42,583 nt of DNA from a virus: positions 1-42,583 of the IMG/VR virus record IMGVR_UViG_3300018432_000021; one strand, given 5' to 3'. Numbering within the stretch: position 1 is the stretch's first letter; each line of letters begins with the position of its first letter. The position numbers and the translations under genes are program-made. The notes under the pieces were generated by a model, which ran no database searches, was not told the DNA's origin, and was given only the letters and a program-made list of their open reading frames with translations. This document shows positions 26,737 to 42,583 of the stretch, piece after piece.

Positions 26737-26809
26737 TGACGGTGACAGGAATCGAACCTGCATGCCCGAGGGTAAGAGCCTCATCCTAACCAGTTTTTGT
26801 TACACCGCC
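26737..26809 (-). tRNA. tRNA-Lys (CTT)
   Basis: Acceptor GGCGGTG/CACCGTC, stem TGAGG/CCTCG with loop CTCTTAC, T-arm GCAGG/CCTGT, discriminator A. The D-arm has an A-rich stretch. Confidence 0.85.
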
Positions 26810-26815
26810 GTTGAG

Positions 26816-26887
26816 AGCACCGGACGGGAATCGAACCCGCTCCTCCGCCATGGCAAGGCGGCACGCAACCTGTAACGCTTCCGGTAC
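26816..26887 (-). tRNA. tRNA-Gly (GCC)
   Basis: Acceptor GTACCGG/CCGGTGC, stem CCGCC/GGCGG with loop TTGCCAT, discriminator T. Confidence 0.9.
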
Positions 26888-26892
26888 TTGAG

Positions 26893-26966
26893 TGGGGCAC
26901 CAGAGAATCGAACTCTGCGCCACGCGCTTATCAGACGCGCTCCAACAACCAGTTGGACTGAACCCC
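26893..26966 (-). tRNA. tRNA-Ile (GAT)
   Basis: Stem CGCGT/GCGCG with loop CTGATAA, T-arm CAGAG/CTCTG, acceptor GGGGTTC/GTGCCCC with one T-T mismatch, discriminator A. Confidence 0.88.
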
Positions 26967-26971
26967 TCGTA

Positions 26972-27043
26972 TGGCCAATCGGTGAATCGAACACCGCACG
27001 CGAAGCTTGTAAAGCTCCCGCTCTCCCACTGAGCTAATCGGCC
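26972..27043 (-). tRNA. tRNA-Val (TAC)
   Basis: Acceptor GGCCGAT/ATTGGCC, canonical D-arm GCTCAGTGGGAGAGC, loop TTTACAA, T-loop TTCGATT. Confidence 0.92.
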
Positions 27044-27046
27044 GTA

Positions 27047-27120
27047 TGGGCCTCACAGGACTTGAACCTGTGACCTCCGCGATGTCAACGCGACGCTCTA
27101 CGCAACTGAGCTAGAGGCCC
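27047..27120 (-). tRNA. tRNA-Val (GAC)
   Basis: Acceptor GGGCCTC/GAGGCCC, stem TCGCG/CGCGG with loop TTGACAT, T-loop TTCAAGT. Confidence 0.92.
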
Positions 27121-27167
27121 TCGCCTGTTACATCATCCGCCCGTCGGGCGGCGAGTGGTCAGCCTAG

Positions 27168-27242
27168 TGGACCAGGTGGGATTCGAACCCACAACCTCCG
27201 GAGTGCAAAACCGGCGCTCTCCCAATTAGGAGCTACAAGCCC
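27168..27242 (-). tRNA. tRNA-Ala (TGC)
   Basis: Canonical D-arm, loop TTTGCAC on CCGGT/TCCGG with a T31-T39 mismatch, T-arm GTGGG/CCCAC. The acceptor GGGCTTG/CTGGTCC has one T-T mismatch. Confidence 0.85.
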
Positions 27243-30218: not shown

Positions 30219-30653
30219 ATGTACGAATTCAACCCTGCCGACCACCTCGCGAGCGGTACCATCTACTACGGTCCGGCGCCCGCGCCGACCGTGGTCGAGT
30301 CCCCGCGCGTCCACGAGCTATCCGGGGACGCCTACGCGGCGACTCAGACGAGCGATGAGATCCGGACGGGCGATGTGCTCGTCGCCGGAGGCGTCGTCGG
30401 CATCATGGTTGAGGTATGGCCGGTCGCGCTGTTCGGCGACGGCGAGAGCATCGGCTTTCACGAGCTATCCCGCGACGCGAACCCGCGCACGGTCGGTCAG
30501 CAGGGCTGGGGGCGCCTTCAGGACATGCGCTACTTCCCGGTGGACGGTCCGGCGGAAGGTCTGCCGATGACCGACTACAGCCCGCCGCGCGGCGGCTACG
30601 ATCTCACCGCATCCATCGCGCTCGCCGAGCGCACATTCGCCCGCAACATCTAA
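30219..30653 (+). CDS. Hypothetical protein, 144 aa, two AGCTATCC sites
   Basis: MYEFNPADHLASGTIYYGPA... A beta-rich protein with 'GDVLVAGGVVGIMVEVWPVALFGDG'. It contains two in-frame copies of GAG-CTA-TCC (Glu-Leu-Ser) that are instances of the AGCTATCC repeat. The start at 30219 is chosen for SD TGGAG; the frame is open further upstream but overlaps the previous gene. Family unknown. Confidence 0.6.
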   Translation: MYEFNPADHLASGTIYYGPAPAPTVVESPRVHELSGDAYAATQTSDEIRTGDVLVAGGVVGIMVEVWPVALFGDGESIGFHELSRDANPRTVGQQGWGRLQDMRYFPVDGPAEGLPMTDYSPPRGGYDLTASIALAERTFARNI

Positions 30654-30673
30654 CCAGAAACGAGAGCTATCCC

Positions 30674-31003
30674 ATGGATCACGCCGACTTCGCCGCCCTG
30701 TTGCCGTCCGAGCAACGCCGCCACATTGACGCAGCCGTTGCCGCGTTCCCCTTCCCCGCCCGACTCATCAGCTTCACCCACGGATGCGGCAGGCACACGT
30801 ACGCCGCGCTGGAGATCACGCGCACGAACCTCCCCGACGAGAGCGCGACGTTCCTGGTCTGCCCGCAGAATCTCGCGAGCTATCCGACCGGGCAGCCCAG
30901 CCAGCCGCGAGTGTTCCGGTCGAGCGTCTATCTCGGCGAGGGCCGATACAGGATGACCGAGCGCGAGGCCGTGAGCGACATGTACGACCGGGCGAACCGC
31001 TAG
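30674..31003 (+). CDS. Hypothetical protein, 109 aa
   Basis: MDHADFAALLPSEQRRHIDA...; a helical N-terminus, then a beta domain with 'SFTHGCGRHTYAALEITRTNL'. The start is one base after an AGCTATCC repeat that includes the SD-like GAGAG. A second AGCTATCC copy lies inside (30878-30885). Unknown function. Confidence 0.6.
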   Translation: MDHADFAALLPSEQRRHIDAAVAAFPFPARLISFTHGCGRHTYAALEITRTNLPDESATFLVCPQNLASYPTGQPSQPRVFRSSVYLGEGRYRMTEREAVSDMYDRANR

Positions 31004-31005
31004 AC

Positions 31006-31173
31006 ATGTTCACGAGTCCCTACAGCGCGAGCGTCGCCACGCCGCGTCCGCCGCTGACCTTCGCCCAGCTGGGCGAGGGCTCGCGGTGCTGCGCTCAGCC
31101 CTTCACCCGCGCGGATGGCACGCGAGGGATCTGCACCGAGCCCTACAACACCCGCCACGACCACCAGTCCTAG
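31006..31173 (+). CDS. Hypothetical protein, 55 aa, Cys-containing
   Basis: MFTSPYSASVATPRPPLTFA... with C-C and a third Cys ('SRCCAQPF', 'GICTEPYNTRHDHQS') plus C-terminal histidines, possibly a small metal site. It starts 2 nt after the previous stop. No family recognised. Confidence 0.5.
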   Translation: MFTSPYSASVATPRPPLTFAQLGEGSRCCAQPFTRADGTRGICTEPYNTRHDHQS

Positions 31174-31184
31174 AGGAGCTATCC

Positions 31185-31517
31185 ATGCTCAACGTCCGCC
31201 ACATCAGCACCGCCATCCTCCTCGTCCTCGTGCTCGCCGTCGCGGGCGATGAGGCCTCAGCTGCCACTGACCATACCGGCACGAGCTATCCGACCCGCTG
31301 CGTCGAAGACATGCCGTGCTGGTCCTGGTCCACGATGGGCAACCGCAAGCGCGGCATCGTGACCGTGTACGGCACGCCTAAGGTCGTCGGACCGTGCGGC
31401 TACCGGCGCGTGTGGGAGCGCACGCCGCGCTCGATGCGAGGGCTCCTCGGTCCGACGCTCAAGGGCGACCGATGGGCTCGCCGCCACGGTTGCATCGGCA
31501 ACGTGCAGAACTGGTAG
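31185..31517 (+). CDS. Small secreted protein, 110 aa
   Basis: Signal peptide MLNVRHISTAILLVLVLAVA ending A-S-A-A, then a mature domain of about 85 residues with four Cys ('CVEDMPCWSW', 'VGPCGYRR', 'HGCIGN'), likely disulphide-bonded outside the cell. The start directly follows GGAGCTATCC. The stop codon TAG is part of the TAGACA -35 of the next promoter. Third Sec-exported protein of the window; function unknown. Confidence 0.65.
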   Translation: MLNVRHISTAILLVLVLAVAGDEASAATDHTGTSYPTRCVEDMPCWSWSTMGNRKRGIVTVYGTPKVVGPCGYRRVWERTPRSMRGLLGPTLKGDRWARRHGCIGNVQNW

Positions 31518-31543
31518 ACAACCACGATCCTGTCCTGTAGTAT
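31515..31543 (+). promoter_or_regulatory. Promoter TAGACA-17-TAGTAT
   Basis: -35 TAGACA at 31515-31520 contains the upstream stop codon; spacer 17; -10 TAGTAT at 31538-31543. The leader (AGTCAAGCTATCCCTAAGGAGCACC) is nearly identical to that of the 32960 gene. Confidence 0.65.
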
Positions 31544-31577
31544 CCCTGTCCTAGTCAAGCTATCCCTAAGGAGCACC

Positions 31578-32069
31578 ATGTCTCGTCCCGCAGTCACACC
31601 CGCGAAGCGCGTCGCCAAGACCGTCGCCGACCTCGCCCTCCTCGACAACGCCGTGAAGGCGGCAGCCAGGGCACTAACCCAGGGCGACGCCGATGGGCTC
31701 GCTGAGGCAGCCAAGTTCATCGAGGCCGTCGGATGCTACGCGCGCCGGACCGCCGCTGTGCTGCCCGTCAACCCGGTTGCGCCCGCAGCTATCCCCACAG
31801 TGGAGAGCCAGAAGGTCGCCGTGTTCGGCCCGAACCTCCGGGACCAGAGCAAGGGACAGTTCGTCGTCCACGCCAAGGGCTGCGGCGACATCGCCAAGGC
31901 GGCTCGCCAGGACCCGGAGTTCCGCAACCCGTACGTGTTCACCGCGACGTCGATGACCGAGATCGCAGACAACACCTACGCCGACCACATCGACGGCGGC
32001 GAGATGGAGCCGGGCGAGGGCCTGAGCGACCACCACTTCTGCCCCTGCGTCAAGCTGCCGGTGGCGTAG
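31578..32069 (+). CDS. Hypothetical protein, 163 aa
   Basis: MSRPAVTPAKRVAKTVADLA...; a helical N-terminal half (about 1-65), an Ala/Pro linker containing an AGCTATCC copy, then an alpha/beta C-terminal part with 'GQFVVHAKGCGDIAKAARQD' and 'HHFCPCVKLPVA', whose Cys/His residues could bind metal. Own promoter plus SD AAGGAG. Unknown family. Confidence 0.6.
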   Translation: MSRPAVTPAKRVAKTVADLALLDNAVKAAARALTQGDADGLAEAAKFIEAVGCYARRTAAVLPVNPVAPAAIPTVESQKVAVFGPNLRDQSKGQFVVHAKGCGDIAKAARQDPEFRNPYVFTATSMTEIADNTYADHIDGGEMEPGEGLSDHHFCPCVKLPVA

Positions 32070-32299
32070 TGAGCTATCCGGTCTACCGCATCCGAGTCGA
32101 GCGCAGCCGTGAGGCGCTCGTGCTCGGCAGCGACTACAGCAAGAACCCGATCCCTGGGCAGCTGGCGCTCGATCTGCCGAGCGCGGGCGAGCGCAGTACC
32201 TTCACCCCGACCATGGGCTGCCAGCGCTACGGTCACCACTTCAACCCTGAGAGTGACTGCTGCAACCGCTGCGGCACTCCCCGCCCCGACTACCGCTGA
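32069..32299 (+). CDS. Hypothetical zinc-finger-like protein, 76 aa
   Basis: Initiated at GTG overlapping the upstream TAG; the codons GTG-AGC-TAT-CCG place an AGCTATCC copy at residues 2-4. The C-terminus 'MGCQRYGHHFNPESDCCNRCGTPRPDYR' has a C...H-H...C-C-x2-C arrangement, a probable zinc site. Part of the tightly packed small-gene array. Confidence 0.55.
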   Translation: MSYPVYRIRVERSREALVLGSDYSKNPIPGQLALDLPSAGERSTFTPTMGCQRYGHHFNPESDCCNRCGTPRPDYR

Positions 32300-32311
32300 G
32301 GAGCTATCCTG

Positions 32312-32473
32312 ATGCGTCCCGATCCCGAGGCACCCGTCGTCCGCAAGATGAAGTCCGACCGCGAGCGCGACGGCAAGCGCGCACCCGGTCGCAAGCGCCG
32401 CGATCAGCAGCGCAAGTTCCAGCGTCAGGTCAAGCGATCTGTCGTCAGCCGATCCATCCGACACACCCGATAG
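32312..32473 (+). CDS. Basic miniprotein, 53 aa
   Basis: MRPDPEAPVVRKMKSDRERD...; about 40% Arg/Lys and predicted helical. The start follows GAGGAGCTATCCTG, an SD joined to the AGCTATCC repeat. Likely nucleic-acid binding. Similar in style to the miniproteins at 13023-13157 and 40402-40563, without clear sequence identity. Confidence 0.5.
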   Translation: MRPDPEAPVVRKMKSDRERDGKRAPGRKRRDQQRKFQRQVKRSVVSRSIRHTR

Positions 32474-32486
32474 GGTAGGGAGAATC

Positions 32487-32756
32487 ATGAAGTTCCACAT
32501 CACATACCGCCGAGGCGGCACCACCGACGTCGGTCGCGTGAACGCTCCCGACCGAGCCGCAGCTATCCGTGCTGCGGCCGTGAAGTTCAACGTGCCCCGC
32601 TCCAACATCACCTCGGTCGTCGGCCTGCCCGAGCCTCGCGTGGCGCCCATCGCGCGCCAGGAGTGCAACGGCTGCCGTGGCAAGGGCAAGGTCAGCGGGC
32701 CGTATGGCGAACCGGTGCGCTGCCGTCGCTGCGGCGGCGGCGGGACCGTGGCGTGA
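32487..32756 (+). CDS. DnaJ-type zinc-ribbon small protein, 89 aa
   Basis: An N-terminal 50-residue beta-alpha-beta domain ('MKFHITYRRGGTTDVGRVNA', 'AAIRAAAVKFNV') followed by C-x2-C-x-G-x-G and C-x2-C-G-G-G-G, the Cys-rich zinc ribbon of DnaJ proteins. Probably binds RNA or protein. SD GGTAGGGAGAATC. An AGCTATCC copy lies in the Ala-Ala-Ile-Arg codons. Confidence 0.6.
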   Translation: MKFHITYRRGGTTDVGRVNAPDRAAAIRAAAVKFNVPRSNITSVVGLPEPRVAPIARQECNGCRGKGKVSGPYGEPVRCRRCGGGGTVA

Positions 32757-32920
32757 TGGTCCCGCTCGTCGGTCTGATCCGAGTGCTGCGCGCGACTGTC
32801 GAGTATGGTCACGAGGCAGCCGACTGGATCGAGTCACGCGAGGGCGCAGCTGCGATGGCAGCGGCGTACCCCGATGAAAAAGCCGGCATCTCGGTTGACG
32901 CGTCGAGCACCACCCAGTAG
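32756..32920 (+). CDS. Hypothetical protein, 54 aa
   Basis: MVPLVGLIRVLRATVEYGHE...; helical. Start overlaps the upstream stop (TGATG). Its last 15 codons are also a promoter: the CCGGCA box, TTGACG -35 and TAGTAT -10 lie within the gene, and the stop codon is the TAG of the -10. The C-terminal sequence is therefore set partly by promoter function. Confidence 0.55.
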   Translation: MVPLVGLIRVLRATVEYGHEAADWIESREGAAAMAAAYPDEKAGISVDASSTTQ

Positions 32921-32923
32921 TAT
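32877..32923 (+). promoter_or_regulatory. CCGGCA-box promoter TTGACG-17-TAGTAT
   Basis: AAAAAGCCGGCA at 32877-32888, -35 at 32895-32900, -10 at 32918-32923. It drives the 32960 gene through a 36-nt leader with GAGGAG. Confidence 0.75.
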
Positions 32924-32959
32924 CTGTCCTGCAAGTCAAGCTATCCCCTGAGGAGCACC

Positions 32960-33274
32960 ATGTCCACGTTCCGCACGCCCACCGTCCTTCTCGCCGCGAT
33001 GCAGTCCGGCGACCACATCCAGATCGGCGACGTCGCCGAGCACGCCGACGCGTACGACGCGTTCGAGCGCTTCGACTCCCACCTCGCCGGATGGACGCGC
33101 GACCTTCACGGCAACCTGCGCCTGGCCACCGGCCACATGCACGCCATCGCGGGCGAGCCCGTCCGCTTCTATCGCCTCCGGATGGAGGGCGCCATCGACT
33201 GCCGCCCCGTCCGTAAGGTCCGCGCCGGGTACGTGCGCAAGACCGGGTTCGTCGGCCTGAAGGCTGGCCGCTGA
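32960..33274 (+). CDS. Hypothetical protein, 104 aa
   Basis: MSTFRTPTVLLAAMQSGDHI...; alpha/beta with 'DAYDAFERFDSHLAGWTRDL' and a basic C-terminus. Strong SD (GAGGAGCACC). Its leader is a near copy of the one at 31538-31577. The next gene overlaps (TGATG). Unknown function. Confidence 0.6.
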   Translation: MSTFRTPTVLLAAMQSGDHIQIGDVAEHADAYDAFERFDSHLAGWTRDLHGNLRLATGHMHAIAGEPVRFYRLRMEGAIDCRPVRKVRAGYVRKTGFVGLKAGR

Positions 33275-33414
33275 TGCTCAAGGTCACCATCGCCCTCAAG
33301 CTGCGCACGAACGACCCCGACGTAGCCGCCGATGAGGCGCAGCGGATCGCCGTCGAGATCCAGGATCGAGTCGGCATCGTCGCTGTCTCGTACGTCGAGA
33401 AGGTCGGCGCCTGA
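33274..33414 (+). CDS. Hypothetical protein, 46 aa
   Basis: MLKVTIALKLRTNDPDVAAD...; beta-alpha-beta, small. Overlaps both neighbours (TGATG), so it is part of the translationally coupled run. No family recognised. Confidence 0.5.
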   Translation: MLKVTIALKLRTNDPDVAADEAQRIAVEIQDRVGIVAVSYVEKVGA

Positions 33415-33635
33415 TGTTGCCCGGCACCCAGCCCGCCAGCTACCGCTGGAGCAACCACGTGAACTGTTGCCCGGACACCTACCGGCCCGTCGCGGTCGAG
33501 GATCGCGGCGATACCATCGTCGCTGGAGTCCTCGGCCTCGATCAGGAAGTCGAGGCGATGGTCGCCCTCCGCATCTTCCAGTACCCGGTCGCGCCGAAAG
33601 GCTCGACGCCCGCCCGCTACTCGCTCAACAACTAG
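33414..33635 (+). CDS. Hypothetical protein, 73 aa
   Basis: MLPGTQPASYRWSNHVNCCP... with a C-C pair and mixed alpha/beta pattern ('GDTIVAGVLGLDQEVEAMVALRIFQ'). Coupled start (TGATG). Unknown function. Confidence 0.5.
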   Translation: MLPGTQPASYRWSNHVNCCPDTYRPVAVEDRGDTIVAGVLGLDQEVEAMVALRIFQYPVAPKGSTPARYSLNN

Positions 33636-33646
33636 GGAGCTATCCG

Positions 33647-33949
33647 ATGACTGAGGAAGACTTCTACACCCGCACGCCGTTCAAGCTGCCCGCCCGCGTG
33701 GATGGGTCCACGCGCGAAGTCGCGCCCGTCATCATCGAGGGCCTCGACCGCGAACTGCTCGACTGCTACATGGCCGAGCACGAGATCAGCGAGCGCATCG
33801 CGAGCGCGTTCCTCGCCTTCGATCTGGAGCCGCCGACGAACGCAGCTATCCTGTCCACCGGCTTCACAACGCGCCAGTCACGCGTGCTCGATGCCACGGC
33901 GCCGAGCACGTCCGAGCAGCTGGGCGAGTACATCGAAGACGAGTCATGA
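33647..33949 (+). CDS. Hypothetical protein, 100 aa
   Basis: MTEEDFYTRTPFKLPARVDG...; acidic and mostly helical. The start follows GGGAGCTATCCG (repeat plus SD); a second copy lies at 33844-33851 in Ala-Ala-Ile codons. The stop overlaps the next start (ATGA). Unknown function. Confidence 0.6.
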   Translation: MTEEDFYTRTPFKLPARVDGSTREVAPVIIEGLDRELLDCYMAEHEISERIASAFLAFDLEPPTNAAILSTGFTTRQSRVLDATAPSTSEQLGEYIEDES

Positions 33950-34203
33950 GCGTCTCTGACTTGAGGCTCAACCTCCCGCCCGAGCGTGCGACGTTCACCT
34001 GGGAGGCTGGGCGCCTGATCCACGGTCAGGTTCGCCGCGCGATCCAGCGCGGCGCCTGGCAGCACGGCCTCGAAGTCTCCTTCGAGGAGTCGAAGGGCTG
34101 GCTGGAGTGTATCGGGCGTGCGACCTTCGTCGGCGAGGGCGCAGGCGAGTACGCGCAGCTGGTCTCCGCCTGGTTCCAGCGCCTCAACGAGGACGAACTG
34201 TAA
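33946..34203 (+). CDS. Hypothetical protein, 85 aa
   Basis: MSVSDLRLNLPPERATFTWE...; alpha/beta with 'EVSFEESKGWLECIGRATFVGEGAGEYAQLVSAWFQRL'. Coupled by ATGA. No family recognised. Confidence 0.55.
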   Translation: MSVSDLRLNLPPERATFTWEAGRLIHGQVRRAIQRGAWQHGLEVSFEESKGWLECIGRATFVGEGAGEYAQLVSAWFQRLNEDEL

Positions 34204-34226
34204 TGCCAACAACCGAGGAGTACAGC

Positions 34227-34439
34227 ATGAAGAACGTACGCATCGAGGGCATCCGCAAAACCAACGTCAAGACCTGGGCCGTCGTCGGCTCGCGTCCGAA
34301 CGACGGGCACGACGGAGGCCGCACGCTCGTCATCGTCGGCGAGTTCGAGGGCACCGGCGCCAAGGCGCGAGCTATCCGCGCTGCGGGCACGAACCGCGTC
34401 GTCACCACGGTGCTCGACACCCTACTGGTGGCGGCATGA
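34227..34439 (+). CDS. Hypothetical protein, 70 aa
   Basis: MKNVRIEGIRKTNVKTWAVV...; a small beta-alpha protein. I chose 34227 because GAGGAG stands 6 nt upstream; an in-frame ATG at 34203 overlaps the previous stop (TAATG) and is an alternative giving 8 more residues. An AGCTATCC copy is in Arg-Ala-Ile-Arg. Confidence 0.55.
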   Translation: MKNVRIEGIRKTNVKTWAVVGSRPNDGHDGGRTLVIVGEFEGTGAKARAIRAAGTNRVVTTVLDTLLVAA

Positions 34440-34663
34440 TCGCGCTGCTGATCCTGCTTGCGATCATCGTCGTCTCCATCGGCGGCACGCTGATCTGCGT
34501 GGTGATTGGAGAGCGCCAACACGAGCGCACCAGCGAGCATCACGAGTTCGCGCTCTCCGAGGCCGAGCGCGACATCTTCTTCGCCGCGTCCGATGAGGAC
34601 GACTACGAGGCGCTGACCGACACGCTGTACGACATTCGGTCGCTGCCGGAGGTCTACCGATGA
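34436..34663 (+). CDS. Membrane-anchored protein, 75 aa
   Basis: N-terminal membrane helix MIALLILLAIIVVSIGGTLI continuing to 'CVVIG', then an acidic cytosolic-type tail ('DIFFAASDEDDYEALTDTLYD'). Coupled start and stop (ATGA). Could be an anchor or superinfection-type protein; nothing specific identifies it. Confidence 0.55.
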   Translation: MIALLILLAIIVVSIGGTLICVVIGERQHERTSEHHEFALSEAERDIFFAASDEDDYEALTDTLYDIRSLPEVYR

Positions 34664-34926
34664 TCGAGCAACGGTTTGCAGCCGCAGCTACCATCGACGG
34701 CTACGAAGTCATCGACGTCGAGACCGGGCGGAGCCTCGGCTTCGAGCGCCCAGCCCGCAACCAAGCGAACGGGATCGCTCAACAGCTGAACCTCGTGGCG
34801 ACCGGAGGGCCTCAGGCCATCGCGAGGTTTCTGCGCGCCGATGCCCGCAGCGACCCTAGCGACCCACTGGGATCAAGCGGATCAAGCGTCCCTAGCCTCA
34901 CCAGTGACCTACAGGTCTGGCCCTGA
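34660..34926 (+). CDS. Hypothetical protein, 88 aa
   Basis: MIEQRFAAAATIDGYEVIDV..., an alpha/beta domain of about 60 residues followed by a Ser/Pro-rich low-complexity tail of about 28 residues. Last gene of the array before a 450-bp gap. Coupled to the membrane protein by ATGA. Confidence 0.5.
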   Translation: MIEQRFAAAATIDGYEVIDVETGRSLGFERPARNQANGIAQQLNLVATGGPQAIARFLRADARSDPSDPLGSSGSSVPSLTSDLQVWP

Positions 34927-35380
34927 GCCCTGGGGTTCTTCGCCTCCGGGATCTGGCTTAGGTTTCTGGGTGTCCCCAGTTCGGGGACGTACCTATTCCC
35001 TTCTCGGCTGCTCTCGCCCTGGCGGGCTCCCGCGCCGCAGCGGAGCAAGTGCGGGGACTCGCCTAGAGCGTAACAGGGGGGTACGACAAAAGATTTCCTG
35101 AGCATTATTTTCGGCCGTGGGACTGGGTTTGCGGTTTCCCCACTAGAATGGTTCTAAAGGTAGATGAACGGTGGCGTTCACAGAAATGCACCCCACATTC
35201 GTACCACCTTACAGTGCCTATTATGGTGACTAGCCCTGGTGCAGAGCCAAAACAGGGCAATCCCACTAGTGTCGTACCACTTCAGGTGGGTTTTGCCGTT
35301 GCCGGCCGATTGACGCAAGTGGTCCGTTCGATCGGCGCGAACGTGCTAGTATCGACAACATCAACTGCGAGGAGAATCAC
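34927..35380. other. Non-coding gap with terminator-like hairpin and motif sites
   Basis: 454 bp without a supportable gene. GTCCCC/GGGGAC hairpin at 34972-34988 (possible terminator), an AT-rich stretch near 35088-35115, and a TAGAA/TTCTA repeat near 35145. CGTACCAC sites lie at 35200-35207 and 35273-35280. A TTGCCGGCCGA box at about 35299 and a TAGTAT -10 at 35347-35352 precede the next gene. Confidence 0.5.
35347..35352 (+). promoter_or_regulatory. Promoter -10 (TAGTAT) for the 35381 gene
   Basis: TAGTAT with a weak -35; the 28-nt leader contains GAGGAGAATCAC before ATG 35381. Two GTGGTACG-family sites lie 70-150 bp upstream. Confidence 0.5.
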
Positions 35381-35848
35381 ATGAACCCCGACTACATCGC
35401 TGGCATCACGAACAAGCCCCGCGTCGCGCTGAACGACCTCCACGAGATCCTCGCGGTCGCAGGCGACCACGCCTCGGCTCGCGTCCGCGAGGCCTACGAC
35501 CTCGGCTACGCCGAGGCAACCGAGCGGCTCTACAACAACAGCGCGTTCGCCGCTGGGGTGGCCGAGGGCCTGAAGCGCGCCGAGCAGGCCGTCGCCGACG
35601 AGGCGAGGCCGTACGGAGAGCGCCTCGACCAGCCGATGGGCGACTTCTGGGTGGGCGTCGTGCTCGACGCGATCCCGTCCCGCCCATACACGTACGTGAC
35701 GAACGATCCGTCGATCACGCACGGTACGCGCGTGCGCGTACCGGTCGGGGATCGCGGCGGTGCCGCCTCCGGGATTGTGCAGTTCGTCTGGTACAACAGG
35801 CCGAGCGTCCCAAAGCCGATCAAGCGCGTCCTGCGGACGATTTCATGA
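35381..35848 (+). CDS. Hypothetical protein, 155 aa
   Basis: MNPDYIAGITNKPRVALNDL...; helical first 90 residues, then 'YTYVTNDPSITHGTRVRVPVGDRGGAASGIVQFVWYN', which faintly recalls the small barrel at the N-terminus of PriA primosomal proteins (V.VPfG.r...GiV). That likeness is weak. Strong SD GAGGAGAA. Overlaps the next gene (ATGA). Confidence 0.6.
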   Translation: MNPDYIAGITNKPRVALNDLHEILAVAGDHASARVREAYDLGYAEATERLYNNSAFAAGVAEGLKRAEQAVADEARPYGERLDQPMGDFWVGVVLDAIPSRPYTYVTNDPSITHGTRVRVPVGDRGGAASGIVQFVWYNRPSVPKPIKRVLRTIS

Positions 35849-36456
35849 GCCGCTTCGACTGGCTCGCCGCCTTCGACGGCATCCGGCTGTACCCGTCGCT
35901 CGGCTCACCAACCTCACACTGGGGCTCTAAGATGCTGAGCGACGTGCTGCGGCGCCGCCGCAACGTCCGAGAGGAGCGCCTGCTCGGGTCGGTAGAGATC
36001 TCGGTCGGTGCGCTTCAGGAGATCGCCGGACGCATCGACGCGCAGTCGAAGGAAATCGCCCGGCTGCAAGGCCTGGGTGACCTGATCGACGCCGACCGCC
36101 TAGCGGGCGAGGAGGCTCGCCTGACGGCTGAGGCCGAGCGCCGTGCTGCTCGGACGGGCGTCGTCGTGCGCGACCGCGCGGGCGACCGCGCAGTCCTCTA
36201 CAACCGGGATGGGAAGGCCGTCGAGCAGAGCACCCCAGCGATCCTATGGGGTCGGGTCGAAGACGAGGGCTGGACCATCACGGAGATCGACGCAGACGGG
36301 ATGCTGGCCACGCACGGCCCGATGTTCCCGCACGAACTGACCGACTTCCAGCGCACCTACGGCGAATGGCTGCGCGCGAAGCGCGCCGCTGAGGTCGAGT
36401 CGGCCCTCCGGGTCTTTGCGCACCGCAAGCTGGTCGAGTGGGACTTGGCAGAATGA
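35845..36456 (+). CDS. Hypothetical protein with central coiled coil, 203 aa
   Basis: An N-terminal basic segment (RRRRNVREER), a Glu/Ala/Arg-rich helix (about 50-100) suited to coiled-coil formation, then a beta domain ('GVVVRDRAGDRAVLYNRDGKAV', 'ILWGRVEDEGWTITEIDADG'). Starts and ends with ATGA overlaps. No family recognised. Confidence 0.55.
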   Translation: MSRFDWLAAFDGIRLYPSLGSPTSHWGSKMLSDVLRRRRNVREERLLGSVEISVGALQEIAGRIDAQSKEIARLQGLGDLIDADRLAGEEARLTAEAERRAARTGVVVRDRAGDRAVLYNRDGKAVEQSTPAILWGRVEDEGWTITEIDADGMLATHGPMFPHELTDFQRTYGEWLRAKRAAEVESALRVFAHRKLVEWDLAE

Positions 36457-37112
36457 TCGAGAACCCTGGAGGGCGCCACGGCGACGAGCCGAGCCCGGAG
36501 GACCGCCTCGCGGGCCGGGACACCTGGACGCCGCCCGCCCCGGAGCCCGAGGTCCCCGTCAAGATTCACCTGACCGACGCGGCGCCCGGTGTCCCGGTCG
36601 CATGCATCAAGGGGCTGCGCGCCACGCTGGGCTACCTTGCGCGCTCGCGCGAACCGACCGCGAGTGTCACCATCGCCGAGGCCGAGACGTACTGGCAGCG
36701 GTGGCTCGACGGCGAACGGCCGCTGTACCTGGGCACAGCTGAGGGCGAAGTCCGTGCCCGCGCAGCGGCCACGGCGGGCGTCATGGCGAGCGGTGAGAGC
36801 CTCATCCTCGCCATCGGTCTGACGGACGAGGAGGAGGCTCGGCTGGCCAAGGACCACAAGGACCAGCAGGCCGCTCAGGATGCCCCTGAGGCGCCCTCAG
36901 AGCCCCGCAGCGACCCTCGCAGCCTCAGCCCCGCACCGCCCGGCTGGGAGCCCACATTCACGGCGTGCAAGCTGGCGCTCGCGTTGCTCGCGCAGAACGA
37001 GGGCGTGCCCGCGCAGGCCTACGCCTGGGCCTCGATCATGGCCAAGTCCGATCCGGAGGGCGAGTGGAACGACGTCAAGTATGTGCTCCTCTCTGCCTTC
37101 CCGTCGCCATGA
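36453..37112 (+). CDS. Hypothetical protein, 219 aa
   Basis: MIENPGGRHGDEPSPEDRLA...; a Pro/Glu-rich N-terminus, a central helical domain ('SVTIAEAETYWQRWLDGERPLYLGTAEGEVRARAAATAG'), an acidic/Pro linker and a C-terminal helical 'FTACKLALALLAQNEGVPAQAYAWASIMAKSD'. The start at 36453 is chosen for the ATGA overlap. Unknown function. Confidence 0.55.
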   Translation: MIENPGGRHGDEPSPEDRLAGRDTWTPPAPEPEVPVKIHLTDAAPGVPVACIKGLRATLGYLARSREPTASVTIAEAETYWQRWLDGERPLYLGTAEGEVRARAAATAGVMASGESLILAIGLTDEEEARLAKDHKDQQAAQDAPEAPSEPRSDPRSLSPAPPGWEPTFTACKLALALLAQNEGVPAQAYAWASIMAKSDPEGEWNDVKYVLLSAFPSP

Positions 37113-37225
37113 AGCCCCACATTTACAAGCGGTGGGGATGCTGGCATGTTCGCTGGCCCGGCTTTGAGTACGGCGGCATCCGCCTATTCAGCGACGCCGC
37201 CGACCTAGCGGCCCGGCGGGGCTGA
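37109..37225 (+). CDS. Hypothetical protein, 38 aa
   Basis: MKPHIYKRWGCWHVRWPGFE..., a Trp-rich miniprotein with the look of a short DNA-binding 'AP2/integrase-arm-type' strand set (K..g.W.v....f.....F......A). Overlaps both neighbours. Low but real support from coupling. Confidence 0.45.
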   Translation: MKPHIYKRWGCWHVRWPGFEYGGIRLFSDAADLAARRG

Positions 37226-37434
37226 TGACCGACCTCGACCCCGCACTCCGGCGGATGAAGGCGAACGCAGCCGTCCGGCTGCGCGGCGAGGCAGCTGACC
37301 TCCAGAAGGAAGCCGCCACCAAGATCGCCATGGCCGAGGCCATCGAGCAGACCTGGTCGCTGTACCCGCGTGAGATCCCGCCGATGCCAGAAAATGCCGG
37401 CAAATCGCTTGACTTCCTCGCGAACAGCGAGTAG
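37225..37434 (+). CDS. Hypothetical protein, 69 aa, 3' end forms a promoter
   Basis: MTDLDPALRRMKANAAVRLR...; a helical N-terminus. The last 14 codons contain AAAATGCCGGCA, a TTGACT -35 and the TAG of the TAGTAT -10, which is the stop codon. Coupled to the previous gene at the start (TGATG). Confidence 0.55.
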   Translation: MTDLDPALRRMKANAAVRLRGEAADLQKEAATKIAMAEAIEQTWSLYPREIPPMPENAGKSLDFLANSE

Positions 37435-37437
37435 TAT
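37391..37437 (+). promoter_or_regulatory. CCGGCA-box promoter TTGACT-17-TAGTAT
   Basis: Box 37391-37402, -35 37409-37414, -10 37432-37437. It is followed by about 130 nt without a gene before a second, leaderless promoter, so it may make a leader RNA. Confidence 0.7.
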
Positions 37438-37541
37438 GTAGACATACTGAATAGTAAGTCCCGCGCGAAGACCCGCCGAGCACCGGGGAGCCGCCACTAG
37501 CCGACCCATTTTATGGATTGAAGAAGTTGTCGGCAGAAACC

Positions 37542-37569
37542 TTGACTTCCGCTGTGAAGTCAGTATTGT
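37542..37569 (+). promoter_or_regulatory. Leaderless promoter TTGACT-16-TATTGT
   Basis: -35 37542-37547, -10 37564-37569, then 7 nt and ATG 37577. Nearly identical from -35 to start to the promoter at 38436-38463. Confidence 0.75.
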
Positions 37570-37576
37570 GTGTCTC

Positions 37577-37771
37577 ATGAAGCTGCACCGCGCACTCCAG
37601 ATCATCCCGCACGACGCCTCGCTCTACGTCACCCACACCCCGCGCGCCTACAGCGGCGCCTGGGTCGTCTGGGCCGATGTCGATGGTGAAGCCTGCATCG
37701 TCACGCAGTTCAAGGGACCGCACGCGGCGGCTTGTTTCGTCCACGACTGGTACAAGGCGGTATCCTCATGA
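37577..37771 (+). CDS. Hypothetical protein, 64 aa
   Basis: MKLHRALQIIPHDASLYVTH...; small alpha/beta ('WVVWADVDGEACIVTQFKGPHAAACFVHDWY'). The leaderless promoter fixes the start at 37577 rather than an ATG 9 nt upstream. Coupled to the next gene (ATGA). Unknown function. Confidence 0.6.
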   Translation: MKLHRALQIIPHDASLYVTHTPRAYSGAWVVWADVDGEACIVTQFKGPHAAACFVHDWYKAVSS

Positions 37772-38439
37772 GTCACTTCGACTACGGGACCGACTACCTG
37801 TTCGCGCGCCCGACGAAGAAGCCGCGCCGCAAGCGGTACTACGTCGCGGGCATCAACCCGGAGGGCAAGCACGATCTCGCGACCGTGCTTGCCTACGACG
37901 TCAGCTTCCCGCGCGAGGCGGCGTCGCAGCAGGGCTGGAACGTGCTTTACGTCGGGCTCACGCCGCCGCCGCCCGAGGATGGCGGATTCGTACTCGACGG
38001 GGCCGCGCTGAAGGAGGCCATCGACTTCCTCGGGCTCCAGTGGAAGGTGGAGGTCGAGGTCCAGGTCAAGCCGAACGGGTCGAAGGCCGACTACCGCTGC
38101 ACGCCCACCGGCGGTGGCGCACACGTGCGCAGCGGCTACTGGCGAAACATCGACAGCGCGACGCACATCGTCCACAAGATCAGGCTGAAGTCATACCTGA
38201 CCGCTGAGCAGGCCTCCCACGCCGCGTGGCACGAACTGGTCCACGCGCAGCAGGCCGAGCGCATCGCGGCAGCCAAGCCGACGCTCACCCCGGCGGGTAT
38301 CTTCCGGGAGTTCAGCAAGCAGTATCGTGATGGCACCAAGTACGAGAACAAGCGACAGGAGCGCGAGGCCAACCGCGTCGCCGATGACTGGTGTCAGGTC
38401 GTGCAGATCGCCGTCCCGAAAAAGCCGGCATCTGCTTGA
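37768..38439 (+). CDS. Putative zinc metallopeptidase-like protein (HELVH)
   Basis: 223 residues. H155-E156-L-V-H159 lies in a helix ('HAAWHELVHAQQAERIA'), and a second helix carries 'RQEREANRVADDW' (E200 as possible third ligand), the arrangement of small HExxH zinc peptidases of the ImmA/IrrE or SprT kind. The N-terminal 130 residues are unknown and beta-rich. No signal peptide. The final codons encode a CCGGCA box and the stop TGA is inside the -35 of the helicase promoter. Function inferred from motif only. Confidence 0.55.
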   Translation: MSHFDYGTDYLFARPTKKPRRKRYYVAGINPEGKHDLATVLAYDVSFPREAASQQGWNVLYVGLTPPPPEDGGFVLDGAALKEAIDFLGLQWKVEVEVQVKPNGSKADYRCTPTGGGAHVRSGYWRNIDSATHIVHKIRLKSYLTAEQASHAAWHELVHAQQAERIAAAKPTLTPAGIFREFSKQYRDGTKYENKRQEREANRVADDWCQVVQIAVPKKPASA

Positions 38440-38463
38440 CTTCCGCTGAGAAGTCGGTATTGT
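38419..38463 (+). promoter_or_regulatory. CCGGCA-box leaderless promoter TTGACT-16-TATTGT
   Basis: AAAAAGCCGGCA 38419-38430, -35 38436-38441 (contains the upstream stop TGA), -10 38458-38463, 7 nt, then ATG 38471 of the helicase. Confidence 0.8.
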
Positions 38464-38470
38464 GTGTCCC

Positions 38471-39913
38471 ATGAGCAATTCATTTACTCCTCATCCCAGC
38501 CAGATCGCAGCCGTCGAGGCTGCCAAGACCGGCGAGAACGTCGTCATCACCGCTGGCGCGGGATCGGGCAAGACCTCCACGCTTCGGCTCATCGCCGACG
38601 CGCTCGCGCCCTCGCGCGGCACCTACATCGCCTACAACAAGGCGATCCAGAAGGACGCGGCTGCCTCCTTCCCCGGCAACGTCAACTGCCGCACCGCGCA
38701 CTCGCTGGCCTTCCGCGCGGTGCCCGAGCACGGCAAGCGCGCCATGAACTCCCCGCGCATGACAGGGCGCCAGCTGGCCTACGCGCTCGACATTGAGCAC
38801 GGCTTCAGCCTCGGCAACGACCGCGAACTCGCCCCCGCCCGCCTCGCCTCGCTGGTCATGGAAACGGTCAGCAAGTTCTGCCACTCCGCCGACCGCCAGA
38901 TCCTCGCGAGGCACACTCCCTTGGTCGAAGGTGCGGAGGAGGTCAGCCATGACCTCGCGAACTACCTCGCCAACGCTGCGGCGAAGGCGTGGTCAACCGA
39001 CTTGCGGCACTCGACGGGCAAGCTTCCGTTCACGCACGACATGTACGTCAAGGTCTGGGCGCTCGGAAACCCGACCATCTCAGGCGACTTCCTGCTCTAC
39101 GATGAGGCTCAGGACGCCGATCCCTGCATCGCGGGCGTCGTGCTCGCGCAGAAGGGCAAGCAGCTGATCGCAGTCGGCGACGAGTCGCAGGCCATCTACG
39201 GCTGGCGCGGCGCGACCGACGCCATGAAGAACTGGCCTGCGCAGCACCGCGTCGTGCTCGCCAAGTCCTTCCGGTTCGGGCAGGCCGTCGCCGACGAGGC
39301 CAACATCTTCCTCAACCGCCTCAACGCGCCGCTGCGCATCGAGGGCTACGAGGCGGTTGACTCCAAGGTCGAGCAGTTCGACACGCTCGACGCGGACGCC
39401 GTGCTCTGCCGGACGAACGCCAGCGTCATCGAGACGGCGCTAGCTATCCACGAGGCGCGCTCGTTCGCCATCGTCGGCGGCTCGAACGCCATCCGCAAAT
39501 TCGCCGAGGCTGCGGCGCAGCTGATGCGCGGTCAGCGCGCCAGCTGGCACGCCGATCTGGGCGCGTTCAAGAACTGGGACGACGTCGAGGACTACGTGAA
39601 CAACGACCACGGCGGATCCGACCTCCGGTCGCTCGTCAACATGGTGACCGACTTCGGCGTCGAGGAACTGTGCCGCGTATGCGACAAGGCCGTCTCCGAG
39701 GACCGCGCCGACGTTGTGATCTCGACCGCCCACAAGGCCAAGGGACGCGAGTGGGACAGCGTGCAGATCGCCCCGGACTTCACCCCGCAGATCGACAAGG
39801 AGACCGGCGAGCGCCGCGAACCGGGCGACGCGGAGATCATGCTCATGTACGTCGCGGTCACCCGCGCGAAGAAGCGCCTCGACGCTACCGCCCTCGATTG
39901 GGCGAAGGCATGA
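38471..39913 (+). CDS. UvrD/Rep-like superfamily 1 DNA helicase
   Basis: 480 residues, shorter than UvrD (about 720). Walker A G-A-G-S-G-K-T (29-35), motif II 'LLYDEAQDAD', motif III 'VGDESQAIYGWRGA', motif IV 'KSFRF', motif V 'ISTAHKAKGREWDSV', motif VI 'YVAVTRAKKRL'. It unwinds DNA 3' to 5' with ATP in replication, repair or recombination. The start at 38471 is set by the leaderless promoter. The next gene overlaps (ATGA). One AGCTATCC copy lies at 39442-39449. Confidence 0.92.
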   Translation: MSNSFTPHPSQIAAVEAAKTGENVVITAGAGSGKTSTLRLIADALAPSRGTYIAYNKAIQKDAAASFPGNVNCRTAHSLAFRAVPEHGKRAMNSPRMTGRQLAYALDIEHGFSLGNDRELAPARLASLVMETVSKFCHSADRQILARHTPLVEGAEEVSHDLANYLANAAAKAWSTDLRHSTGKLPFTHDMYVKVWALGNPTISGDFLLYDEAQDADPCIAGVVLAQKGKQLIAVGDESQAIYGWRGATDAMKNWPAQHRVVLAKSFRFGQAVADEANIFLNRLNAPLRIEGYEAVDSKVEQFDTLDADAVLCRTNASVIETALAIHEARSFAIVGGSNAIRKFAEAAAQLMRGQRASWHADLGAFKNWDDVEDYVNNDHGGSDLRSLVNMVTDFGVEELCRVCDKAVSEDRADVVISTAHKAKGREWDSVQIAPDFTPQIDKETGERREPGDAEIMLMYVAVTRAKKRLDATALDWAKA

Positions 39914-40563
39914 GGCGAGCTATCCTCTCACTGGCCGTGGCGGCGGCGCTCAGCGCGCCCCCCACGGCCTCCGCAGACGCCTTCCGTACCGGCCAGCGTG
40001 CCTCCGACGCGGAGGCCGTAGGCCTGCATCGGCAAACTGCTCAGCGCGTCGTCGCGGGCTACACGAATTGCCCGCAGATCCGGTTCGTGTTGGGTGCTAA
40101 GGCTGCTGCGGCCATCGACCGCGCATACCCCAACCAGGACTGGCCCGCCCAGATCGGTGGGATGGCCAGCGACGACGACCCGAAGTGGGATCATCCCGCT
40201 TACGGCCGCTGCACCGTCTGGCTGCGCCCCGGCCTGAAGCCAGAAGACCGCCGACGCATCATCATCCACGAGATCATGCACACGGCTGGCTGGGAACACG
40301 GCGAACTGATGGACGAGGAGTGCGCGAAGGCTCAGGTCCAGGTATCGAAAAAGCCGGCAAATGCCTTGAATCGCCGCGCAGGATCCGGTAGTCTTCGAGG
40401 TATGAAGAAGATCAAGTCCACCCAGCCGAAGGTCCGCTCCCGCATCGGGCGCGAGGCCCACCAGCAGACGGGCGCAGGCAAGCATGGCGGTTCAAGCCGC
40501 CAGCAGCGTCGGCGGGACCGTCAGAACATGAAGCGCGCGCTGCGCGCGGGAAGCGAGGACTAG
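39910..40563 (+). CDS. Exported metzincin-type metalloprotease, fused in frame to a basic tail
   Basis: 217 residues. Signal peptide MRRAILSLAVAAALSAPPTA ending A-S-A. Zinc motif H120-E-I-M-H124-T-A-G-W-E-H130 is a full HExxHxxGxxH (metzincin type, as in matrixin-like proteases). One Cys pair (C54, C101) could form a disulphide. From residue 165 the frame runs without a stop into a very basic 53-residue segment that has its own promoter and start (40402). Compared with the sister cassette at 38419, one extra base between the CCGGCA box and the -35 removes the usual stop codon. Confidence 0.7.
   Translation: MRRAILSLAVAAALSAPPTASADAFRTGQRASDAEAVGLHRQTAQRVVAGYTNCPQIRFVLGAKAAAAIDRAYPNQDWPAQIGGMASDDDPKWDHPAYGRCTVWLRPGLKPEDRRRIIIHEIMHTAGWEHGELMDEECAKAQVQVSKKPANALNRRAGSGSLRGMKKIKSTQPKVRSRIGREAHQQTGAGKHGGSSRQQRRRDRQNMKRALRAGSED
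40348..40394 (+). promoter_or_regulatory. CCGGCA-box leaderless promoter TTGAAT-17-TAGTCT inside the protease gene
   Basis: AAAAAGCCGGCA 40348-40359, -35 40366-40371, -10 40389-40394, then 7 nt and ATG 40402. Confidence 0.7.
40402..40563 (+). CDS. Nested basic miniprotein, 53 aa
   Basis: MKKIKSTQPKVRSRIGREAH...; about one third Lys/Arg with Gln and Ser, probably nucleic-acid binding. It is in the same frame as the protease gene and forms its C-terminus, but it has its own leaderless promoter, so the short form is probably the main product. Confidence 0.6.
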   Translation: MKKIKSTQPKVRSRIGREAHQQTGAGKHGGSSRQQRRRDRQNMKRALRAGSED

Positions 40564-40564
40564 T

Positions 40565-40852
40565 ATGCACACCGTCACCCTCTCACAGAACAACAGCGGC
40601 GGCTCCTTCTGGCTGAAGGACGCCGACTTCGACGCTCTCGTCGCAGACGGCTGGGTCGAGTCCGACCCAAGCCTCAGCGTGGGCATGTGGGGCCGCGTCG
40701 CAGGCGACCTGACCCTCGACGTCCCGGTCGAGGCCGAGGCCGCTGCCATCACCATCGCCAAGATCGAGTTCCAGCGCGTCACCGGGCAGGATCCGGACGA
40801 CGAAGGCTGCAACTGCTGCGGCCCGCCCTTCGACTTCAGCTGCGGCTGGTAA
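40565..40852 (+). CDS. Hypothetical protein, 95 aa, Cys-rich C-terminus
   Basis: MHTVTLSQNNSGGSFWLKDA...; alpha/beta body with 'PVEAEAAAITIAKIEFQRVTG' and a C-terminal 'EGCNCCGPPFDFSCGW' holding four Cys, likely a metal or redox site. SD-like GAGGAC. The start is one base after the previous stop. Unknown function. Confidence 0.6.
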   Translation: MHTVTLSQNNSGGSFWLKDADFDALVADGWVESDPSLSVGMWGRVAGDLTLDVPVEAEAAAITIAKIEFQRVTGQDPDDEGCNCCGPPFDFSCGW

Positions 40853-40862
40853 GGAGAACCAT

Positions 40863-41213
40863 ATGTCAGACATGATCGTCACACGCGAGCAGTACATGGA
40901 CCTCATCGAGTTGGGGATCGTTACCGCCGCCGCTCGTGGCAGGGCGCTCAAGGCGTCCTCCGCTGCCACGCTGCGCGCGCACGCGCTCTCGGCAACCGAG
41001 GTCGGCATCGGCTCGTTCTGCGAGCCCCCGCACTGTCCGGCCGTCCAGGCGGGACTCTACGACCCCCGCGCTGACGTGGACGAGCCCGACGCGAAGGACG
41101 AGCACATCACGGACTTCGCGATGCGGTTCGACTCTGGCGTGGACGCGCTCTGGCGCGATGACCAGGGGCGCGACCTCCCGGACAGCGCGCCGACGCGGCT
41201 CATCATCAAGTAG
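40863..41213 (+). CDS. Hypothetical protein, 116 aa
   Basis: MSDMIVTREQYMDLIELGIV...; helical N-terminal half, acidic C-terminal half. Strong SD AAGGAGAACC. Two Cys in 'SFCEPPHCPAV'. The stop is followed directly by the palindromic CCGGCA box of the next promoter. No family recognised. Confidence 0.6.
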   Translation: MSDMIVTREQYMDLIELGIVTAAARGRALKASSAATLRAHALSATEVGIGSFCEPPHCPAVQAGLYDPRADVDEPDAKDEHITDFAMRFDSGVDALWRDDQGRDLPDSAPTRLIIK

Positions 41214-41214
41214 T

Positions 41215-41260
41215 AAATGCCGGCATTTTCCTCGCTTCGGCGGGGAAGATCCGGTAGTAT
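41215..41260 (+). promoter_or_regulatory. CCGGCA-box promoter with TAGTAT -10 and weak -35
   Basis: Here the box is a perfect 14-bp palindrome, AAATGCCGGCATTT (41215-41228). -10 TAGTAT at 41255-41260. The -35 position (TCGCTT) is poor. It drives the 41296 gene. Confidence 0.6.
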
Positions 41261-41295
41261 GCAGTACATCATCCCGCTACGAAAGAAGGCCTAGC

Positions 41296-41454
41296 ATGTC
41301 CTACTCCAAGATGACTCTCACCGTGACCGCCACCGGCAAGGCACCGACTGCGACCAGCCTTCAGTCTGTTCAGAACGCCGTCGCTCGCGCGCTTCGCACC
41401 GAGGGTGTCGTCGTCTCCACAGACGCCGTGCAGGTCGAGGGGCGCCTCGCCTAA
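41296..41454 (+). CDS. Hypothetical protein, 52 aa
   Basis: MSYSKMTLTVTATGKAPTAT...; beta-alpha-beta pattern. SD GAAGG about 10 nt upstream. Overlaps the next start (TAATG). Unknown function. Confidence 0.55.
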   Translation: MSYSKMTLTVTATGKAPTATSLQSVQNAVARALRTEGVVVSTDAVQVEGRLA

Positions 41455-41786
41455 TGCTCATCACCATCACGAAGGTGCTCGACCCCGCCCGTCGCATCGT
41501 CGCCATCAAGGCGCTCCGGGCCGCGTCGAATCCGACGCTGGGTCTGCGTGACTCCAAGCTGGCGGTTGACCACCTGGCCGACGGCGGCGAGGCGTTCAAC
41601 TTCGACGGCGACGTCACGCCTGACCTGACGGCCTGCTTCACGGTCTCCGTGGCGGAGCACGCCGCAGCCGAACTGAAGGCGCTGGCCATCGAATTCATCC
41701 TCGATGTGTTGGCGTGGTCCGACCCCGAGACGGCTCAGCAGATCCTCCAGCTGAAGTCCTATCGCGCGCTAAAGGCGGCGCTCTGA
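41454..41786 (+). CDS. Ribosomal L7/L12 C-terminal-domain-like protein
   Basis: 110 residues. 'RRIVAIKALRAASNPTLGLRDSKLAVDHLADGG' follows the L7/L12 CTD pattern K..vIK.vR..t.lGLkeAk.lV. The rest is a helical C-terminal extension ('HAAAELKALAIEFILDVLAW'). In ribosomes this domain recruits translation factors. A phage homologue might engage the ribosome stalk's partners or just share the fold. Coupled at both ends. Confidence 0.5.
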   Translation: MLITITKVLDPARRIVAIKALRAASNPTLGLRDSKLAVDHLADGGEAFNFDGDVTPDLTACFTVSVAEHAAAELKALAIEFILDVLAWSDPETAQQILQLKSYRALKAAL

Positions 41787-42583
41787 TGCCGCTCAAGCCG
41801 ATGCTGGCCAAGGACGTTGACTGGGGGCGCCTCCGCTTCCCGGTCATCGTCCAGCCCAAGCTGGATGGGATTCGCGTCCACGTTCAGGGCGGCGTTGCGC
41901 TGACGCGCACCCTCAAGCGTGTGCCCAACGCTGAGATCCAGGCGGCGCTCGGGCGTCCCGAGTGCGAGGGCTTCGACGGCGAGATCATCGTTGGCTCGCC
42001 CACGGCCGAGGACTGCTACCGTCAGACCTCCAGCTTCGTCATGTCGCAGGCCAAGCGCGGCGCGGGCTGGACCTTCTACGTGTTCGACATGATTGACCGT
42101 CCTGGCGAGTCCTACACGGAGCGTCGCGACGAACTGTCTGCGCGCCTGCGCCACTCAACGTGGCTGACCAGCCGCTTCGTGCCGATCCTGGTAGGCCAAA
42201 GCCTCGCGGACAACGCCGAGGAGTTGGAGCGCATGGAGGCGCTGCTGGTCGCCCAGGGACATGAGGGAGCTATCCTCCGCATCCCGGACTCCGCCTACAA
42301 GCACGGCCGCTCGACCCCGGCCGGGCCGTTGCTGAAGGTCAAGCGGTTCGTGGACTTCGAGTGCGTGCTGCTCGACGTGTACGAGGAGAACCACAACGCC
42401 AACGAGCGGTTCACCAACGAGCTAGGGCGAGGTGCCCGGTCGTCGGCCAAGGACGGACTCGTGGGCAAGAACACGCTCGGGGGGTTCGTGGTCAGCCCGG
42501 TCGATGACTCGGTTTGCGATTCCTCGATCACCTTCAAGGTCGGTACCGGCTTCAGCGCATCGCAGCGCCAGGAGTACTGGGAC
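41786..42583 (+). CDS. ATP-dependent DNA ligase (partial, C-terminus beyond right edge)
   Basis: 266 codons visible. Nucleotidyltransferase motifs: I 'PKLDGIR' with the adenylated Lys, III 'EGFDGEIIV', IIIa 'FYVFDMI', IV 'EGAILR', V 'LLKVKRF', followed by the start of the OB domain ('LGGFVVSP', 'ITFKVGTGFS'). It seals nicks in duplex DNA in phage replication or repair. The start overlaps the upstream stop (TGATG). An AGCTATCC copy lies in motif IV (Gly-Ala-Ile-Leu). Confidence 0.92.
   Translation, partial: MPLKPMLAKDVDWGRLRFPVIVQPKLDGIRVHVQGGVALTRTLKRVPNAEIQAALGRPECEGFDGEIIVGSPTAEDCYRQTSSFVMSQAKRGAGWTFYVFDMIDRPGESYTERRDELSARLRHSTWLTSRFVPILVGQSLADNAEELERMEALLVAQGHEGAILRIPDSAYKHGRSTPAGPLLKVKRFVDFECVLLDVYEENHNANERFTNELGRGARSSAKDGLVGKNTLGGFVVSPVDDSVCDSSITFKVGTGFSASQRQEYWD

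Follow-up and report, generated by a model that had tools for sequence, protein, structure and literature searches.

The stretch of DNA analysed here, IMG/VR virus record IMGVR_UViG_3300018432_000021 over its full 42,583 nucleotides (hereafter the window), carries on its plus strand an array of small early genes, with a DNA helicase gene and an open reading frame (ORF) matching DNA ligase further downstream, and this region is studded with exact copies of the octamer AGCTATCC (Table 1). Those array genes that were tested against Pfam and PHROG gave weak matches only, with no informative family. Gene calls throughout come from our own ORF scoring and not from published annotation, all promoters mentioned are predicted elements, the "early" and "middle" arms are drawn from gene order, and the records are metagenomic and may be incomplete. 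The octamer occurs 18 times on the plus strand, from 30316 to 42268, and not once on the minus strand, with 15 copies within 30316-34377. These counts agree with those of an earlier, sequence-only reading of this DNA, which had also put the spacing at roughly 100-500 bp; the measured spacing is 107-699 bp.

Expectation for the window is 0.69 copies from dinucleotide shuffles or 0.33 from a second-order Markov model (P ~3e-25), which bears out the earlier claim of an abundance far above chance, and the word ranks first among all octamers of the record. The enrichment belongs to the full octamer only: GCTATC occurs 19 times and AGCTAT 18 times on the plus strand, and because 18 of each sit inside the octamer, no shorter word explains it. 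A forward-strand excess of one-mismatch variants was looked for and none was seen, and the sole flanking preference is G at -1 (12 of 18 copies in the window, 97 of 118 in the phage family described below). Ten window copies lie inside genes, using all three reading frames, against 0.9 when synonymous codons were shuffled within genes and 0.2 when codons were resampled by amino acid; the codon-shuffled null proposed with the sequence-only reading therefore does not match the counts, and its view that protein selection is insufficient is upheld. The window gene 30219-30653 and the orthologous gene of the related phage G001 both encode the peptide GFHELS, whereas the octamer spelling is present in the window only, so that copies are gained or lost through synonymous change. 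In the literature searched the octamer as a word had no match, and longer strings containing it gave only incidental matches, judged by title.

Table 1. Copies of the octamer and associated features in the window
Feature	Position	Strand	Context	Comment
Small early gene array	30219..34926	+	own ORF scoring	contains 15/18 copies
AGCTATCC	30316..30323	+	in gene 30219-30653, Glu-Leu-Ser frame	absent at homologous place in G001
AGCTATCC	30463..30470	+	in gene 30219-30653, His-Glu-Leu-Ser	G001: peptide kept, gene without octamer
AGCTATCC	30665..30672	+	1 nt upstream of ATG 30674; reads GAGAGCTATCC	
AGCTATCC	30878..30885	+	in gene 30674-31003, Ser-Tyr-Pro frame	
AGCTATCC	31177..31184	+	abuts ATG 31185 (GGAGCTATCCATG); reads GGAGCTATCC	
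AGCTATCC	31284..31291	+	in gene 31185-31517	
AGCTATCC	31558..31565	+	12 nt upstream of ATG 31578; 14 nt downstream of putative -10 TAGTAT	
AGCTATCC	31787..31794	+	in gene 31578-32069, Ala-Ile frame	
AGCTATCC	32072..32079	+	immediately 3' of GTG start at 32069	
AGCTATCC	32302..32309	+	2 nt upstream of ATG 32312; reads GGAGCTATCC	
AGCTATCC	32561..32568	+	in gene 32487-32756	
Putative sigma-70-type promoter TTGACG-17-TAGTAT	32895..32923	+	copy 32939 begins at ~+9 of predicted transcript	
AGCTATCC	32939..32946	+	13 nt upstream of ATG 32960	
AGCTATCC	33638..33645	+	1 nt upstream of ATG 33647; reads GGAGCTATCC	
AGCTATCC	33844..33851	+	in gene 33647-33949	
AGCTATCC	34370..34377	+	in gene 34203-34439	
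AGCTATCC	39442..39449	+	in DNA helicase gene 38471-39913	G001 orthologue without copy
AGCTATCC	39918..39925	+	4 nt past helicase stop, 11 nt upstream of GTG 39937	
AGCTATCC (GGAGCTATCC)	42268..42275	+	inside ORF 41714-42583 matching DNA ligase	

Relatives were collected from IMG/VR by way of the helicase, capsid, ribonucleotide reductase (RNR) and DNA polymerase, and eight uncultured relatives were found to carry 4-22 copies each. Forward/reverse counts are 18/0 in the window, 15/0 in G001, 16/1 in G049, 4/0 in G028 (a fragment), 7/3 in G078, 7/1 in G079, 22/0 in G088, 11/0 in G089 and 18/2 in G090, giving 118 forward copies in the nine phages together. DNA polymerases of the motif-bearing relatives are ~42-60% identical to that of a family member, and AGCTATCC stays the same in phages that share only about half of the residues of their core proteins. 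All phages whose early arm is nearly complete (besides the window, G001, G049, G078, G079, G088, G089 and G090) have more in-gene copies than the codon nulls predict, the excess in G078 resting on three copies; in the short fragment G028 the in-gene count is not distinguishable from the null. Whole-record statistics are weaker for G078 (P ~1e-4, rank 71) and G079 (P ~7e-4, rank 203), and the copies in both are clustered and oriented as in other family members.

The early spans of the nine phages hold all 118 forward copies and no reverse copy, a count that is descriptive only since the spans were drawn around the copies. In seven phages, the region from the first copy to an SNF2-type helicase gene contains 95 copies in 150 kb, whereas the stretch that begins with this gene and runs co-directionally through the primase, polymerase and terminase module holds one copy in 127 kb against 80 expected at early-arm density; the boundary was picked after inspection, but the gene that marks it does not differ among the seven. 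Copy density is 2.6 per kb over the first 2.5 kb and ~0.4 per kb thereafter, the first bin being slightly inflated because counting begins at the first copy. The sequence-only reading had all copies pointing with transcription, and this is so in the window but not in the relatives, where at least three are antisense inside or between leftward genes. These lie in the lysis region, at G089 1156 and G090 8126 inside a leftward gene (246 and 255 amino acids, 44% identical) and at G049 18815 between two leftward genes. Polarity therefore follows the genome arm or rightward read-through transcription, not the local gene. The copy at G089 1785, just upstream of the predicted -35 of a promoter, is a further departure from the earlier claim.

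Positions turn over far more readily than the word itself. Between distant relatives none of six aligned copies is shared. G089 and G090, which are 76% identical over 44 kb, retain 5 of 11 aligned copies against ~12% expected, the latter being the retention rate of any octamer between these two phages. Conservation at homologous positions, which the sequence-only reading had proposed to examine, is thus confined to close relatives, while abundance, strand and region are kept throughout; conservation of copy number and strand reaches further back than that of position.

Family-wide, 58 of the 118 copies are inside genes, with the three frames used 33, 15 and 10 times and Glu-Leu-Ser the commonest. 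Density is nevertheless six-fold higher in non-genic DNA (2.85 versus 0.47 per kb), and 20 of the 118 copies end 0-2 nt before a start codon, compared with 1.6 expected from non-genic space. This start-adjacent peak is not taken as proof of a translation role, since it may arise because the Shine-Dalgarno GGAG there already supplies GAG. In the window, six copies had been described as lying 0-13 nt before starts and fused to the Shine-Dalgarno sequence; our own calls give seven (30665, 31177, 31558, 32302, 32939, 33638 and 39918), six of them in the array, and the form GGAGCTATCC is restricted to 31177, 32302, 33638 and 42268, with 30665 reading GAGAGCTATCC and a separate Shine-Dalgarno sequence downstream of 31558 and 32939. 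Local RNA hairpins or accessibility at the copies were examined and gave no signal. Two further functions suggested by the sequence-only reading fared poorly: a general translation site is disfavoured because half of the copies are inside genes, and a recombination seed between gene cassettes is unsupported, as the flanks show no conservation.

Some copies are placed at predicted promoters. They lie a few bases downstream of predicted sigma-70-type promoters at window 32939 and G049 16099, between a CRP-like palindrome and the -10 at G089 58627, and over predicted transcription starts at G089 58114, G090 64291 and G090 64830; in G089 and G090 copies are found at or near the predicted starts of promoters with CRP-like palindromes; at G078 10287 a reverse copy is located between the predicted -35 and -10. 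A role as a promoter element was rejected, as strong promoters overall show no enrichment of copies. The CRP-like palindromes (TGTGACCAACGTCACA) recur across G089 54188-61779 and G090 3891-68791, many of them centred ~29 bases before a TAGNNT -10 box, which is the class II CRP position; these may be promoters that answer to a host CRP-type regulator. In the window, promoter-like CTTGACTTCC blocks are present at 37408, 37541 and 38435, the last two near-identical (CTTGACTTCCGCTGnGAAGTCnGTATTGTGTGTCnCATGA) and the last directly preceding the helicase gene; the octamer follows none of them. A link to tRNA, considered because GGATAGCTC resembles a tRNA D-arm, was also set aside: the copies are outside tRNA genes and no GGATAGCT occurs on the window plus strand. 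ARAGORN places 24 tRNA genes on the minus strand of the window, in clusters at 12944-14250, 22738-23177 and 26361-27242 that cover most amino acids, and the phage has ~65% G+C.

Among the other records examined, oriented enrichment was absent from L015 and L016 (helicase 40% and 32%) and from ~70 RNR- or capsid-related contigs. G035, the sister of G079 in the polymerase tree, has no AGCTATCC, which looks like loss. G047 has no copies; G048 was set aside, its four copies ranking 313th among octamers and its AGCTATC excess tracing to repetitive DNA rich in GCTCGAG. G077 (L159/L160), picked up by DNA pattern, proved to be an otherwise unrelated contig; it has AAGGAGCTATCC as a tandem repeat of 12 bp, and a further copy in a ribosome-binding-site-like context. 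A close named phage was not found (nearest DNA polymerase 29%, nearest terminase ~30%), and a host of the family was looked for but not found. Other repeats occur in the same phages. In the same array, within the first 4 kb of the reversed record (L129-L133), G035 has in place of the octamer ten ACAGAAAGGGTGAG cassettes a few bases before starts, often with an upstream CCTAGCGCAGTCCTGC, which resemble start-associated sequences (SAS), and the early region of G079 (L189, L192) has ~10 intergenic CCGGCAATG copies (ATCCGGCAATGCC), another family-specific start-region repeat. In addition, an early protein of 657 amino acids (G001 14170-16143) is conserved, with orthologues in G049, G078, G089 and G090; it has a weak HATPase match and is possibly rIIA-like, and a second conserved gene lies downstream.

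The explanation tentatively favoured here, and considered the most probable of those weighed, is that an invariant factor recognises AGCTATCC as a polar site and acts there on rightward transcription of early genes, the site working in the manner of an operator or stoperator and with a repressive effect; between the regulator site and the polarity signal that the sequence-only reading had listed, the regulator is favoured. From the exactness, polarity, early-arm restriction and density gradient of the element, together with its family-wide conservation and synonymous turnover, we infer a binding factor, its action on transcription and repression. Also in favour of this explanation are the in-gene excess over the codon nulls, the six-fold higher non-genic density, the copies antisense to leftward genes, those in promoter DNA or over predicted transcription starts, and the lack of an RNA structure signal. 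A sequence-specific factor would read AGCTATCC, with G preferred before it, over the early arm; RNA polymerase moving rightward would be slowed or stopped at bound copies, whether these lie close to transcription starts, within genes or between them, and early genes would be turned down as the replication (middle) module takes over. The operators/stoperators of Cluster A mycobacteriophages (L5, Bxb1) offer the nearest likeness, with ~20 asymmetric sites per genome that keep one orientation with respect to transcription and occupy the non-structural arm; some are in promoters, most are not. Theirs, however, follow a 13-bp degenerate GGTGG(A/C)TGTCAAG-type consensus, lie mainly between genes and drift between phage subclusters (PMC6550527), and they belong to temperate phages with a cognate two-domain repressor, whereas here the site is an exact 8 bp, invariant, with half of its copies in genes, and neither repressor nor integrase was found. 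In IronMan (NC_054814), used as a yardstick, the 22 sites comprise 10 exact, 7 one-mismatch and 5 two-mismatch, 17 outside genes and 5 inside. The octamer may work like operators or stoperators, yet it does not belong to their family, being exact rather than degenerate, with no repressor homologue and no integrase found.

Several observations weigh against this repressive reading. Known stoperators are degenerate and drift, while the octamer is exact and invariant; location of half the copies in genes is unusual for operators; and the promoter placements depend on predicted elements, with no overall enrichment at strong promoters. No homologue of the IronMan repressor was detected by blastp or phmmer in the family records, which are possibly incomplete and in which a diverged repressor would be missed, and no PF00589 (integrase) match was present in seven family records, serine integrases and parABS not having been searched. 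No gene had a phylogenetic profile matching that of the motif, with presence in every motif phage and absence from the motif-free ones, and the candidates for a phage trans-factor common to the seven long motif records are also present in motif-free G035. The identity of the motif in distant relatives, with no phage gene tracking it, makes a host molecule or a phage component under strong constraint a likelier reader than a fast-evolving phage repressor. This also leaves some probability to readings at the level of RNA or of Chi-like DNA processing.

In a reading at the RNA level, AGCUAUCC would tag the rightward transcripts of early genes. Its reader would be a small RNA with the seed GGAUAGCU, an endoribonuclease specific for the sequence, or a repressor of translation. 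Eight absolutely exact positions with one soft flanking base are as expected from seed pairing, the rightward early strand carries all copies, 20 copies stand in the ribosome binding site, and several lie just downstream of predicted transcription starts. The analogy would be to early mRNA shut-off by T4 RegB, which processes early mRNA at GGAG; the octamer, too, would be acted on in early transcripts, often at ribosome binding sites, although the RegB motif is 4 nt, the word enriched here is an exact octamer and no nuclease was found. The tag seems possible but unlikely, given that some copies are antisense in lysis-region genes or in promoter DNA, that no accessibility effect was seen, that start-adjacency is explicable by Shine-Dalgarno sites supplying GAG, and that the window, G001, G088 and G089 have no reverse copies and so encode no perfect complement, for which reason an RNA guide would be host-made. 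Less probable still is a polar DNA-processing site (Chi-like, or a nick, injection or replication signal) of which one strand is read by a host enzyme independently of gene expression. As with the Chi octamers of RecBCD/AddAB, the word is short, exact, strand-polar and blind to gene direction; it is invariant despite diverged core proteins, and its density peaks at one array edge. Chi is genome-wide, however, whereas the octamer keeps to the early arm and breaks off at the SNF2-type helicase gene in all seven long-record phages though the next genes are co-directional, and the strong bias toward non-genic and start-adjacent DNA also speaks against processing.

That the octamer is an element of translation initiation, comparable to the SAS of Cluster K mycobacteriophages, is improbable, even if the likeness in concept noted in the sequence-only reading is supported. 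Both are asymmetric, often merge with the Shine-Dalgarno sequence, here in a start-adjacent peak with GGAG, and keep one orientation within non-structural genes (PMC3203893 for SAS). The 13-bp SAS (GGGATAGGAGCCC) is nevertheless unrelated to AGCTATCC with its preferred G, and almost always lies 3-7 bp before starts, with 6 of 125 inside genes (PMC12699233) against 58 of 118 here, where some copies are also antisense or in promoter DNA. As the source of the octamer, chance, codon usage or a single duplicated repeat is refuted by the Markov, dinucleotide and codon nulls, by flanks without similarity and by independent occurrence in eight relatives; nothing speaks for it beyond the predominance of the Glu-Leu-Ser frame.

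The octamer could also be an exact, family-wide early-gene tag read by an invariant, probably host-encoded molecule that these phages have co-opted for shutting down their own early genes, an idea offered as speculation and given limited credence. Candidate readers would be a small RNA seed, a nuclease or a DNA-tracking protein, and the tag would form an addressing code held by count and strand, not by position. SAS and stoperators are known as dispersed asymmetric phage sites, yet they are degenerate or tied to starts, and to our knowledge SAS, described in 2011, are still without a proven function. Here an exact word is conserved across a phage family even though most of its locations and the gene content change, and its copies end abruptly at the replication module. 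The octamer thereby offers a clean bait for its reader molecule, and it allows the idea that phages switch gene classes via the density of polar sites to be tested directly.

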